Assembly (NCBI GenBank): GCA_016125075.1
Contig: WGMO01000008.1
Location: forward strand, 1 to 64,000
Direction of reading: 5' to 3'
DNA length: 64,000 bases
Source of the DNA: Terrimonas sp.
GTDB taxonomy: Bacteria; Bacteroidota; Bacteroidia; Chitinophagales; Chitinophagaceae
Part shown: positions 56,276-64,000 of the stretch, in pieces
How positions within the stretch are numbered: the stretch's first letter is position 1
Layout: every line of letters begins with the position of its first letter
Program-made: the position numbers and the translations under genes
Notes under the pieces: model-generated
What the model was told of the DNA's origin: nothing
What the model saw: the letters and a program-made list of their open reading frames with translations, nothing else
Database searches by the model: none

Positions 56276-57244
56276 ATGACAGCAGCAACTATTCTCATCA
56301 CCGGCGGTACCGGCCTGGTCGGCACCGCTTTGACAAAGGCCTTATTGGAAAAAGGATATCATGTTATTATCCTGACCCGTAACCCATCCCGATACCCGAA
56401 CCCGACTGCAAATCCCCATCTCTGTTATGCAGGATGGGATGTGAAAAAGCAGCACATCGATAAGGATGCCCTTGCCAAGGCTGATCACATCATCCATCTC
56501 GCCGGGGCAGGGGTAGCGGATAAACGCTGGTCGAAAAAAAGGAAGCAGGAGATTGTAGACAGCCGCGTGAAAAGCAGTGAACTTATCGTTCAGGTATTGA
56601 AGGAATACCCCAACAAAGTGCAAACTGTGGTCAGTGCATCCGCAATAGGGTGGTATGGCCCGGATCCTTCCATCCCTCTTTCCAACCATCGTGAAGGGTT
56701 TATTGAATCTGATCCTCCGTCACAAGATTTCCTCGGCACGACTTGTAAGCAGTGGGAAATATCCATTGAACCGGTCACCGATTTGGGAAAACGGTTAGTG
56801 ATACTCAGGACAGGAATCGTATTAAGTAATAACGGTGGAGCCTATGTGGAATTTATCAAACCCCTGCATTGGGGCATCGCTGCCATACTGGGAAATGGGA
56901 AACAGGTGATTAGCTGGATACATATTGATGACCTCGTTAGGATGTTTATCCATGCCCTTGAACAAAAAGATCTTTCGGGCCCCTATAATGCCGTAGCGCC
57001 CGCACCCATCTCCAATAAAGCGCTGGTAATAGAAATCGGCAAACAGCGCAGGGGACAATTTTATATTCCCATTTTTGTTCCCTCTTTTTTGCTAAAAATA
57101 ATACTGGGTGAAATGAGTATTGAAGTGTTGAAAAGTACAACGGTCAGTGCAGCCAGGATACAGGCCACCTCCTTTACCTTTCTCTTTCCAACTGCTGTAG
57201 CGGCGGTCAGGCACTTGCTGGGCCAAAGAAATCAAAAGGGCTGA
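56276..57244 (+). CDS. TIGR01777/SDR39U1 family epimerase
   Basis: 322-residue NAD(P)-binding protein of normal length for the family. ILITGGTGLVGTALTKALLE, IIHLAGAGVADKRWSKKRKQEI, WYGPDPSIPLSN and ISWIHIDDLVRMFIHALE are the expected signatures, with a DUF1731-type C-terminus. Substrate unknown. It is a distant relative of the longer protein at 23907. Its last 38 bases overlap the end of the metzincin gene on the other strand. Confidence 0.9.
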   Translation: MTAATILITGGTGLVGTALTKALLEKGYHVIILTRNPSRYPNPTANPHLCYAGWDVKKQHIDKDALAKADHIIHLAGAGVADKRWSKKRKQEIVDSRVKSSELIVQVLKEYPNKVQTVVSASAIGWYGPDPSIPLSNHREGFIESDPPSQDFLGTTCKQWEISIEPVTDLGKRLVILRTGIVLSNNGGAYVEFIKPLHWGIAAILGNGKQVISWIHIDDLVRMFIHALEQKDLSGPYNAVAPAPISNKALVIEIGKQRRGQFYIPIFVPSFLLKIILGEMSIEVLKSTTVSAARIQATSFTFLFPTAVAAVRHLLGQRNQKG

Positions 57245-57899
57245 CACCTGCATGGTCCTGGTGAAAGATATTTGTGAAGGCCCCAATGATATTTTTATCC
57301 TTACTTAAAATTATCTTTTCCAGTTTCAGCTGGTCAATATCTTCCTGTAATACTTTCCTGAACCTGGGATGAAGGGTTCCCCCTTTTGTGCCAGCGGGCG
57401 CCTGGGGTTCATACTGAAATTCAGGGTCCGTTAGTGTGCCACGGGGATACATGATTCCCGGCTGGCCTTTACCGCGAAGATCAAGTACAGTGGGGTGTTC
57501 CAGCCCCAGGGTATGACCATATTCATGGGCAGCCGTGGTGGAACCAGGGTAGAGGTTATCAAGTTTGAAATAACCGCTGTTGCAACCCAGCCCGTCCACA
57601 AAGGAGATTTGGTTATGGGAGAATGCTTCGATCCGGAAATAATTATTGCTGGGGTCCAGGTTCGTATATACTTCCATATCCGTGAGGGTGGGTTGAAAAC
57701 GGGCCGTTATGGAAAAGATAACGTTATAGGCAATCCCTTTTAAGTATACAGTTGCTTTGGGTTCATTCCATAAGGTTTCGATTTCTTCCCTGATCAGGGC
57801 GGTAATTTTTTCATCTGCAGCATTACCATACGTGATGATGTGGGAGTAAATGAAAACCAGCCGGTGATATTTGTCCATTTCAACGGAACCCATTTTCAA
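57207..57899 (-). CDS. Metzincin-type metalloprotease without signal peptide
   Basis: 230 residues. The zinc motif is complete in AAHEYGHTLGLEHP (HExxHxxGxxH), and GIMYPRG downstream supplies the expected Met-turn. The N-terminal 25 residues (MKMGSVEMDKYHRLVFIYSH) are not a signal peptide, and no sorting domain is present, so it is apparently cytosolic, which is odd for this protease clan. The start may be one of three nearby Mets. No gene in the neighbourhood gives a clear role; the ECF sigma unit lies just upstream on the same strand, 41 bases away from its start. Confidence 0.75.
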   Translation of the reverse strand: MKMGSVEMDKYHRLVFIYSHIITYGNAADEKITALIREEIETLWNEPKATVYLKGIAYNVIFSITARFQPTLTDMEVYTNLDPSNNYFRIEAFSHNQISFVDGLGCNSGYFKLDNLYPGSTTAAHEYGHTLGLEHPTVLDLRGKGQPGIMYPRGTLTDPEFQYEPQAPAGTKGGTLHPRFRKVLQEDIDQLKLEKIILSKDKNIIGAFTNIFHQDHAGVSPFDFFGPASA

Positions 57900-57939: not shown

Positions 57940-59463
57940 TTATAATGAAAAAATGAGCCCCATTCCCGCCCCGATACTATAGGGATAGGATTTGATCCCT
58001 GTATTCTTTGTGATCGGGGTCAGTGCATAACGGAAGGAAGGAATGAAGGATAAAGATATTTTCGGCCTTATCCTGTAACGGATAGCGGTATTCATATAGA
58101 GCCCTAAAGTGAATTTTTTCAGCCCGTTGAGCTTTGTCTTGTATTCCTGCTCTCCATACTGGGTGCTCCGGATCTCTGTTTCAAGGGTGCCCCTGGTCAG
58201 CAGGTTGGCGGTAATACCGAGGCTTGGTGAAAAATTCAAGCGGTTGGATCCGGGTGAAAAATTGATCAGGACCGGAATACCGATGTATTCAAGCGTACTG
58301 TGCGATTCCTCGATTTTAAGGCTATCACCGGGTAAAGGCTGACCTGCACCAGGTTTGATATATGCAAAACCGGAGGTGAGATTGATTTTGAAATCAGTTT
58401 CCCCTCCGGGTCCGGCAACGGCATAAACCTGCTGGGGTCTGACACTGACAAAATTGGTTGTATATAAAAGACCTGTTTGGAATGAAAACTTCCTGTTAAA
58501 GGGATAACTGGCCAGTACACCTCCGCTGAAGGAGGGTTCTTCATTTTCCTTTTCTTCCAGTTCGCGTACATTAACGGGCATTGGAATGGATCCGTCTTCA
58601 TCCTTTGCATAGATCTTCGGTACTTCGGCTGAACCCAATACAGTGAAAGTCCAGCCCCTGTTCAATGGTCTTTTTTGCCGGAAAGGGTCCTGTAACCGAT
58701 CCCTGCTGACCAGGAAACTGGCAGCGGAATCTATTCCGGTTACAGGCAGGTTCCCCGTAAACAGGCCAACCCGTTGCGCGGGGATATGGGTATGTTCATT
58801 TATTGGAGGCTGTTTAAGCGCCACGGCCTCAGTTTCTGCAGAGGTCAAATTATTGACCAAGATATCCCGCTCATTTCGGGAAATCCTACGCTTTGAATTA
58901 TTTTTTTGGGGGGCGATGTTTTTTACCCGGCCGGCCACAACCTGTGCGGGTATTGGAGCAGTACTGGATTTTTCCGAAGCTGGGTTGCTGTTTGCAGGAA
59001 GGGAATGTTTTTTGGAGATCGGGCTTGCTGCTGCTTCTGCATCCGGTAAGGTGGCCTCTTCGGGGGGAGATACATTATACCGGGTAGTGCCGGTGATATC
59101 GGCGGTTTTGTCATCAGTTGTTGGGTACTGGCGGTCCCGGATACCCGAAATATTTTTATGAGTTTCTTCATCTGCCCCGGGAAGGGTTGGGGTCTTACCC
59201 GTGCCGGAAACCTTATCCCTGTCTGCCAGAGATCCGGATCCGGAATGGCGCAGGAAATTGTCTGCAACCAGGTAAGAGAGGAATAAGAGCAACAGCAAAA
59301 CCGCTATTCTCTTCGCAAACACATATTTCTTCTTATAAGCCGCTATTTCCTCTTTATCCAGATCGGAAGAAAGCTGCTCCCAGACTTCCGGCGAAGGCGT
59401 TTCCCGGTGTGCATCCAGCCCGGCATGAAATAGATTATCAATATCGTTTACATCATCACCCAT
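57940..59463 (-). CDS. Membrane-spanning partner of the ECF sigma factor with barrel-like C-terminus
   Basis: 507 residues. Residues 1-45 are cytoplasmic-type and acidic (PSPEVWEQLSSDLDKEEIAA), like short anti-sigma regions; then comes a membrane helix (IAVLLLLLFLSYLVADNFL, about 52-70), a long disordered Pro/Ser/Thr/Ala-rich stretch (about 75-265), and a C-terminal region of alternating strands (SFSGGVLASYPFNRKFSFQT to GAGMGLIFSL) like an outer membrane barrel. It starts 5 bases after the sigma gene, so it is its partner. Role as anti-sigma factor is inferred. No signal peptide for barrel export is visible. Confidence 0.75.
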   Translation of the reverse strand: MGDDVNDIDNLFHAGLDAHRETPSPEVWEQLSSDLDKEEIAAYKKKYVFAKRIAVLLLLLFLSYLVADNFLRHSGSGSLADRDKVSGTGKTPTLPGADEETHKNISGIRDRQYPTTDDKTADITGTTRYNVSPPEEATLPDAEAAASPISKKHSLPANSNPASEKSSTAPIPAQVVAGRVKNIAPQKNNSKRRISRNERDILVNNLTSAETEAVALKQPPINEHTHIPAQRVGLFTGNLPVTGIDSAASFLVSRDRLQDPFRQKRPLNRGWTFTVLGSAEVPKIYAKDEDGSIPMPVNVRELEEKENEEPSFSGGVLASYPFNRKFSFQTGLLYTTNFVSVRPQQVYAVAGPGGETDFKINLTSGFAYIKPGAGQPLPGDSLKIEESHSTLEYIGIPVLINFSPGSNRLNFSPSLGITANLLTRGTLETEIRSTQYGEQEYKTKLNGLKKFTLGLYMNTAIRYRIRPKISLSFIPSFRYALTPITKNTGIKSYPYSIGAGMGLIFSL

Positions 59464-59468
59464 GCGTA

Positions 59469-60020
59469 CTACCTATAATAGTTTATTTTTTTTTTGCTGA
59501 TAATTTCCTTTTGCAAAATGGCCCTGGCATCAAAGAGATTGGATTTGGATGTTCCTTCGGAAATGCCCAGCAGTTCGGCGATTTCCCGGTGTTTATAACC
59601 TTCAAAGACGTAGAGGTTAAAAACGACCCTGTAACCTGCGGGCAAATTTTGGATCAGTTGTAATAATTCTTTTACATCTATCTTTTCCTGGATCCCCGCA
59701 TCTGTTCCTGTTTCGGGAACAAATTCATTCAATTCAATGACGGGTACCAGCCTGGCTTTTTCACGATACTTGAGCAACGCGCAATTCACCATGATTTTCC
59801 TGATCCATCCTTCGAGAGAACCTGTGCCTTTGTACTGTTGAATATATTTGAAGACCCTTAAAAACCCTTCATGTAATATTTCCTCAGCATCCTCTTTCGA
59901 CCTGGCATAACGCATACAGACCCCTAGCATGACAGGGGAAAACTGGCTGTACAATTGTGATTGTGCAGCTCTTTCGCCTTTTATACATCCTTTTAGCAGG
60001 AGCTGCTCTGAAGCTGCCAA
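59469..60020 (-). CDS. ECF-type RNA polymerase sigma factor
   Basis: 183 residues with region 2 (YSQFSPVMLGVCMRYARSKE, EEILHEGFLRVFKYI) and region 4 (LPAGYRVVFNLYVFEGYKHR, EIAELLGISEGTSKSNLFDA). No ATG fits the start; the track start is TTG 60020, and the frame is open further up. A ten-A run lies in its last codons. Coupled with the downstream membrane/barrel gene. In Bacteroidota such sigma factors often control envelope functions; the target here is unknown. Confidence 0.92.
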   Translation of the reverse strand: MAASEQLLLKGCIKGERAAQSQLYSQFSPVMLGVCMRYARSKEDAEEILHEGFLRVFKYIQQYKGTGSLEGWIRKIMVNCALLKYREKARLVPVIELNEFVPETGTDAGIQEKIDVKELLQLIQNLPAGYRVVFNLYVFEGYKHREIAELLGISEGTSKSNLFDARAILQKEIISKKKINYYR

Positions 60021-60146
60021 ATGTCTGTTCTTTTCAGTAATAAGATATACCTCTTTAAATAAATGGTTGGGTGAATATAGGAATAACCCATTTTTCAGAA
60101 TAGGACAATGGTCACCGGCATTTTTTCAAAACAGGCTGGCAGGTAA

Positions 60147-62670: not shown

Positions 62671-63564
62671 TTATTTTTTTTGCTTTTTTATCTGGAAGGC
62701 CCTTAACAGGTTAAACCCGAACTGGATATCCCCTTTCGCCCAGTCATTTGTTGTTTCCGTTAAAAAGACTCTTTCATTCATACCGATGGCATTGGTAAAA
62801 TGGATCTGGAATACGTGTCCGCCGGTTTCAATATCGATCCCAACAGAAAGCGGATTTTTGGTGCCGTCATTTTCGTTGGGGTTGACCCTGTAATAATAAT
62901 CGGCAGTAAAGGAAACCCGGTTACTCAACCTGATCCTGCCTCCCGCACCAACAGCAAACATATCACTGGGGTCATTGAAGGTGGGAACGAGATTGCGGTG
63001 CAATACTGTGGGCATCAACTGAAGGGTGATACCTTCTGTAATCTTGCTGCCGATGATTAACTGTCCATAGTATGCCAGCCTGGAGGTGAAATAATTTTTA
63101 CGCGAGGTGTCGGCCCATTTCAGGGAATTTAAAGTGCCCCCGGCAACAGCCAGTACGGAAAAGGGCAGCCCACCGTTTTTGGACTGGTGGATAAGGCGGT
63201 ATTTCAGGAAACCGTCGAATTCCTTTTTATTGGTACTTCTTCCCACCCCCAGCATAAAATTTTTGGTGATGCCAAAATCAAAACCCATCCGCATGGTCGC
63301 ATTGTCAAGGCCAAAAAATTCATATGCCCCTTTGTTCACATTGCCGAAGCGATGCAGGATGCGGAAATCCATTACACCCGGCCTGGTCATTTCAAGGCTC
63401 TGGCTCATGATAACCCGCGAAGACTTAAATGCATAATCGACGAATTCCTTTTTTGGCTTTTCATTACCGCCGACCAGGCTCAGCAGGTCCTCGTCCTGTG
63501 CCTGCAACCCGGTGCAGCATGATGATAACAGAAGGATGGCAAAGGCGATTTTGGTGATGCGCAT
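62671..63564 (-). CDS. DUF5777-type outer membrane beta-barrel protein
   Basis: 297 residues from ATG 63564 (MRITKIAFAILLLSSCCTGLQAQ, a signal peptide); the track start adds 23 residues. Family signs: VDYAFKSSRVIMSQSLEMTRPGVMDFRILHRFG and strands with alternating residues to the end. Function unknown; genes of this family often lie beside YceI proteins, as here, and sometimes with heme or respiratory proteins. Lies 44 bases after the YceI gene. Confidence 0.8.
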   Translation of the reverse strand: MRITKIAFAILLLSSCCTGLQAQDEDLLSLVGGNEKPKKEFVDYAFKSSRVIMSQSLEMTRPGVMDFRILHRFGNVNKGAYEFFGLDNATMRMGFDFGITKNFMLGVGRSTNKKEFDGFLKYRLIHQSKNGGLPFSVLAVAGGTLNSLKWADTSRKNYFTSRLAYYGQLIIGSKITEGITLQLMPTVLHRNLVPTFNDPSDMFAVGAGGRIRLSNRVSFTADYYYRVNPNENDGTKNPLSVGIDIETGGHVFQIHFTNAIGMNERVFLTETTNDWAKGDIQFGFNLLRAFQIKKQKK

Positions 63565-63608
63565 GAGCTGTATTGGTTTTGATGGGTGGGTGAATGTTGC
63601 CGGGTTAA

Positions 63609-64000
63609 TTATTTTAATGGTTCGAGAGAACAATCCACTTTTATGTTGACGGTATTGGAGATCTTATCGTTCACCACCGTTGGGATGCTGATATCATAGT
63701 CTGAAAGCAGAATCTGGAATACGGCATTGGCGGCAATCTTTCCTCCCCTGACGCTGAGTTTACCGGTCGATTCTACGTCTTTGGTAACGCCATGTATGGT
63801 CAGTTTTCCTTTCACTTTGGCAGTATATTCACCGTCTTTACCGTAATTGATATCGGCATTATTGGTAACCTGGCCTTTGAATTCTCCTTTGGGGAACTTA
63901 TGGCTTTCCACATAATTCTCATTAAAGTGTTCCTGCATCAATGCCCGCTTGAACTCGAAGCCCTTCATCAGAACGGCAAACTGCATATTGCCCGTCTTGC
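63609..64000 (-). CDS. YceI family lipid-binding protein, N-terminus outside window
   Basis: 130 codons visible; the 5' end is cut by the right edge (the ATG at 63986 in the track is internal). Family signatures FEFKRALMQEHFNENYVESHKF, GKLTIHGVTKDVE and the end VNIKVDCSLEPLK. YceI proteins are periplasmic beta-barrel lipocalin-like carriers of isoprenoid-type lipids. Co-transcribed with the DUF5777 gene. Confidence 0.9.
   Translation of the reverse strand, partial: KTGNMQFAVLMKGFEFKRALMQEHFNENYVESHKFPKGEFKGQVTNNADINYGKDGEYTAKVKGKLTIHGVTKDVESTGKLSVRGGKIAANAVFQILLSDYDISIPTVVNDKISNTVNIKVDCSLEPLK

Follow-up and report, generated by a model that had tools for sequence, protein, structure and literature searches.

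The window, as we call the whole stretch of 64,000 nucleotides of Terrimonas sp. DNA that was analysed, carries two adjacent genes that are very probably best explained as an ECF sigma factor and an anti-sigma factor of the Dma family, for which we propose a release mechanism and envelope and redox targets. Envelope-spanning anti-sigma factors, known experimentally in gut Bacteroides and Phocaeicola, appear to be common in another branch of the Bacteroidota. The new elements of the analysis are a predicted promoter for such a pair and the redox genes predicted to be controlled from it. The promoter sequence allows targets of a Dma pair to be predicted, and a flavin redox operon is the concrete candidate.

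Both genes are located on the minus strand. The sigma gene (59469-60020; 183 aa, TTG start) is followed, after a gap of 5 nt, by the gene of a 507-aa partner (57940-59463), and the earlier note had drawn the boundaries of this pair, 57940-60020, exactly. The sigma protein matched the Pfam domains Sigma70_r2 (region 2, 2.4e-11) and Sigma70_r4_2 (region 4, 2e-16). The partner matched PF13568 (OMP_b-brl_2) over residues 305-483 with 2.1e-9, above the gathering score. An NCBIfam search with the two proteins returned no name for the pair, and a direct sequence search of the PDB returned no match. The PF13568 match, the homologs, the AlphaFold2 model, and the gene pairing identify the 507-aa protein as a putative Dma-type anti-sigma factor, which is probably the inhibitor of the adjacent sigma factor. 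Among the neighbouring genes on the same strand, a DUF5777 outer-membrane barrel protein (62671-63633) and a YceI-like protein (63609-63986) are encoded upstream of the pair, and a metzincin-like protein (57207-57899; HEYGHTLGLEH, GIMYP), without a signal peptide and conserved in the family, is also encoded on the minus strand. We considered the last as a third part of the system and rejected it: its family homologs are common, yet they lie far from the Dma pair in two genomes (G006 and G011).

The architecture read from the letters beforehand, namely an acidic head, one membrane helix, a disordered linker of about 190 residues, and a barrel-like C-terminus, was recovered in full. The head (residues 1-51; 59311-59463) is predicted to be cytoplasmic and to bind the sigma factor on account of its charge and a conserved LFxxxLxxxExxPxxxVW motif; its residues 1-40 comprise 12 D/E against 2 K/R, a net charge of -10. 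Residues 41-52, flanking the helix, carry a net charge of +5, which indicates that the N-terminus is oriented inwards. The transmembrane helix (residues 53-70; 59254-59307) has a hydropathy of 2.2 over 18 residues and is part of a helix spanning residues 25-73 in the model. The linker (residues 74-266; 58666-59244) consists of 193 residues rich in P, S, T, A, N, and K, lies slightly under the Uversky boundary in composition, and has pLDDT values below 50 over residues 74-264. An AlphaFold2 model of the C-terminus had been proposed beforehand as a check. The model, computed with an input alignment of 18 homologs, gave for residues 272-506 a beta-barrel with eight membrane strands and pLDDT mostly above 90; we assign the barrel to residues 272-507 (57943-58650). 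Foldseek comparison with the PDB retrieved, among the matches listed, outer-membrane barrels throughout, the best being OmpA, Ail, NspA, OmpX, and OprG.

Members of the Dma family, found in Bacteroidota, combine an N-terminal anti-sigma domain, a transmembrane helix, a long disordered tether, and a C-terminal barrel, and adjoin an ECF21-type sigma gene (PMC13088901). We located Dma2 orthologs via their published operon partners by examining genomes with DUF4943, and recovered two loci in which the sigma gene is followed in turn by the gene of a Dma-like protein and those of DUF4943, DUF4858, and a nitronate monooxygenase. This matches the published gene order of BT_1559-BT_1555 in Bacteroides thetaiotaomicron (PMC13088901). 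The barrel profile of the 507-aa family matched a Dma2-ortholog barrel with an E value of 3.7e-5. The head profile matched two Dma2 heads weakly (E values of 0.004 and 0.008) and missed several others; the same profile search matched the barrels of the two matched proteins with E values of 8e-5 and 2e-6. A tree of 53 sigma factors placed the sigma factor of the window with the Das2 orthologs and the other sigma partners of Dma proteins on the same side of one branch (support 100/98, 100% of bootstraps), and the 14 other sigma-type regulators of the Terrimonas genome that the tree included fell outside this clade. Das2 has been called a putative ECF21 factor (PMC13088901), and the sigma factor of the window groups with its orthologs by tree position rather than by comparison with an ECF21 model. 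The following Dma features are present in Terrimonas: the ECF sigma gene in the same operon at 5 nt, the head with one transmembrane helix, the 193-residue tether with pLDDT below 50, the barrel recognised by PF13568, AlphaFold2, Foldseek, and the Dma2 profile match, and the occurrence in Bacteroidota, as seen for homologs with a named taxon. As judged by these comparisons, we conclude that the pair is a further member of the known Dma family, the head, with its weak match to Dma2 and its predicted sigma binding, being the weakest link.

A candidate promoter precedes the sigma gene. It reads ACCCAACCATTT-N11-TATATCT on the minus strand (60072-60043), about 22 nt ahead of the TTG start, and scores 28.3 of at most 30.4. 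The -35-like element ACCCAACCATTT (60061-60072) also stands ahead of related sigma genes; the -10-like element is TATATCT (60043-60049). The pair CCAAC-17-CATC occurred in 15 upstream regions of related sigma genes, and shuffled regions gave 5 or fewer for any pair; Das2 orthologs have an upstream element unlike that of the Terrimonas sigma relatives. The element shared by the sigma gene and its relatives suggests a promoter and autoregulation, comparable to the autoregulation of das2 observed in a dma2 deletion of B. thetaiotaomicron (PMC13088901).

A search of the Terrimonas genome with the promoter pattern returned seven sites, five inside genes and two intergenic. The latter are the sigma promoter itself and a strong copy of its motif 97 nt ahead of a thioredoxin gene. 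This gene, for thioredoxin_7, belongs to an operon on contig C19 (140055-143054; L198) that also encodes ApbE, a lipoprotein of the DUF4266 type whose tail is CGC, and DUF3570. The same genes, with a CXC tail in the DUF4266-type protein, constitute a flavin-based, DsbD-type redox (flavinylation) cluster (PMC8238504); that work covers the redox system, and the link to the Dma pair is a prediction of the present analysis. We predict that the operon is the external target of the Terrimonas sigma factor. We looked for orthologs of the thioredoxin gene in 27 genomes with and 30 genomes without Dma and scored the upstream regions of the retrieved loci with the weight matrix of the sigma promoter. 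Of the 13 Dma-positive regions, 5 reached a score of at least 18, against none of the 13 Dma-negative regions (one-sided p 0.02), the Dma-negative set including several distant paralogs, and the motif was missing ahead of the redox operon in 7-8 of the 13 Dma-positive genomes. A similarly stringent pattern gave about 0.2 matches per genome in a reversed control. Over 249 genomes of the family, the excess of the motif pattern over the reversed control was modest, and most of the inspected matches were within genes or ahead of the sigma gene. In two other genera, represented by Segetibacter koreensis (L063) and by Chitinophagaceae 26-R-25 (L061, same contig as L227), the redox operon adjoins the sigma-Dma pair on the opposite strand and has its own copies of the motif; in other relatives, copies precede genes for lipoproteins and TonB-dependent receptors near the pair. 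Tentatively, and with somewhat more doubt than belief, we suggest that this branch of Dma pairs might, in Chitinophagaceae, be a dedicated outer-membrane sensor of the extracytosolic redox state, controlling the flavinylated DUF3570 operon, nearby lipoproteins, and TonB-dependent receptors via ACCCAACCATTT-N11-(C/T)ATCT. If so, a single protein would connect the outer membrane with a redox system based on flavins.

In the mechanism that we propose, the acidic head would keep the sigma factor bound at the inner membrane, with the linker crossing the periplasm and the C-terminal barrel seated in the outer membrane. The head would release the sigma factor once the outer membrane becomes disturbed or the barrel fails to assemble, probably by degradation of the 507-aa protein or by a changed state of the tether. 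The freed sigma factor might then transcribe its own operon from ACCCAACCATTT-N11-TATATCT and a small set of envelope genes, the predicted external target in Terrimonas being the flavin-based, extracytosolic redox system of the thioredoxin-ApbE-DUF4266-DUF3570 operon. The signal for the same sigma-Dma system could instead be an external ligand or glycan that binds to the barrel, as put forward by the Dma2 authors (PMC13088901), and the barrel family does vary fast in the alignment of homologs. We regard such a signal as rather unlikely, although deserving of attention, because EcfO/Reo responds to envelope-damaging toxins, one of which targets BamA (PMC9308784, PMC13114119), and the predicted Terrimonas targets are redox and envelope genes, not a glycan locus.

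As an alternative, raised in the earlier note as well, the chain may be cut after its export, in the periplasm. The head and helix would then act as a conventional anti-sigma factor of the inner membrane, and the barrel would be freed as a separate small outer-membrane protein, so that the fusion would couple amounts rather than signals. The helix looks like an uncleaved signal anchor, and the linker is poorly conserved. Moreover, a 288-aa protein on contig C9 (L147:1766-2632), encoded behind an ECF sigma gene, has two heads in tandem and a helix without a barrel, which implies that the head-helix part can work alone. However, the linker is long throughout, most homologs having about 125 to 220 residues and four about 600, a tether-like length that would be needless in a cut protein, and the published relatives are described as envelope-spanning (PMC13088901, PMC13114119). 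As the linker has at least about 125 residues in all homologs, a tether fits better than a cut protein, and we consider cleavage improbable. The four relatives with the longest linkers (L068, L069, L070, and L073; from 4001 onward) keep this head and helix, followed by about 600 residues rich in K, T, A, and P and by a barrel-like end, and are encoded directly after a sigma gene. Their AlphaFold model was uninformative (pLDDT 27), which leaves a weak PF13568 match as the indication of their barrel.

The reading as a tethered anti-sigma factor also agrees with the gene pairing. In 17/17 homologous loci, these being the full-length homologs of the aligned set, which were gathered by sequence, the end of an ECF sigma gene falls between 8 nt within the partner gene and 10 nt ahead of its start (-8 to +10 nt); the order is kept in most further homologs across Bacteroidia, and the two observations together argue that the pairing is not due to chance. 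That an outer-membrane protein gene merely shares an operon with the sigma gene, its acidic head having another role, is most improbable: Pfam and NCBIfam searches found no domain covering the head, but this constant pairing, the homology to Dma2, the recurrence of the head with other C-termini likewise behind sigma genes, and the fact that most other PF13568 barrel proteins of the Terrimonas genome have an N-terminal signal peptide and no adjacent sigma gene all stand against it. The homologs with a named taxon are all from Bacteroidota, mostly Chitinophagaceae, and one is labelled 'bacterium' alone. One other genome of the same genus was examined and had no match to the Dma alignment, suggesting that the pair is patchily distributed. 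The Terrimonas genome itself has three further sigma and head-helix pairs: the one on contig C9 mentioned above, one on C15 with a 491-aa partner and a weak PF13568 match, and one on C10 with a 466-aa partner, barrel-like by eye only. Further variants of the architecture were observed. In one protein (L075:3617-4885), encoded 39 nt after a sigma gene, the same head and helix are joined not to a barrel but to PKD domains and a CHU_C end resembling a type IX secretion signal, and two barrel-bearing Dma-type proteins (L112 and L114) have two tandem heads ahead of the helix.

Transfer of an outer-membrane event to an ECF sigma factor is also known from FecR-type anti-sigma factors with TonB-dependent transducers. 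Such systems use three separate proteins, whereas the Terrimonas pair would use one chain. The class of single-chain proteins was reportedly named Dma (dual membrane-spanning anti-sigma) by Pardue et al. in PNAS in 2024, with Dma1 in B. thetaiotaomicron, and EcfO/Reo of Bacteroides fragilis is said to go back to Ndamukong in 2013. Evans et al. (2022) described a pair in Phocaeicola whose anti-sigma factor is predicted to span the periplasm and to end in an outer-membrane barrel, and which is induced by an envelope-stressing toxin (PMC9308784). This pair is now named EcfO-Reo; it spans all compartments, probably senses outer-membrane stress, and is induced by Bd-A (bacteroidetocin A) (PMC13114119), which binds and inhibits BamA (PMC9308784). 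Dma2/Das2 (BT_1558/BT_1559) of B. thetaiotaomicron followed (Pardue et al. 2026; PMC13088901). The envelope-spanning design is therefore already described for gut Bacteroidota, between 2022 and 2026. The model, the homology, and these published relatives (PMC9308784, PMC13088901, PMC13114119) agree with the idea in the earlier note that one chain can inform the sigma factor about the state of the outer membrane; the accompanying claim that no characterised system is built in this way fails, since EcfO-Reo (2022), Dma1 (2024), and Dma2 (2026) precede it.

Compared through published descriptions, EcfO/Reo of B. fragilis and Phocaeicola vulgatus has the same gene order and architecture as the Terrimonas pair. 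Its link to oxidative stress in B. fragilis agrees with the predicted redox target, but its regulon comprises nigD lipoprotein genes and O-antigen functions. None of the retrieved loci was recognised as encoding Reo. With Dma1/Das1 and Dma2/Das2, the Terrimonas pair shares the sigma gene followed by the anti-sigma gene, the head, the single helix, the long disordered tether, and the C-terminal barrel; in the case of Dma2/Das2, the barrels are homologous and the sigma factors belong to one clade. The Terrimonas pair differs from Dma2/Das2 in lacking the DUF4943 and DUF4858 operon partners, in its promoter motif, in a longer barrel with larger loops, and in its targets, which are predicted to be redox genes rather than the vesiculation and glycan genes of Dma2.
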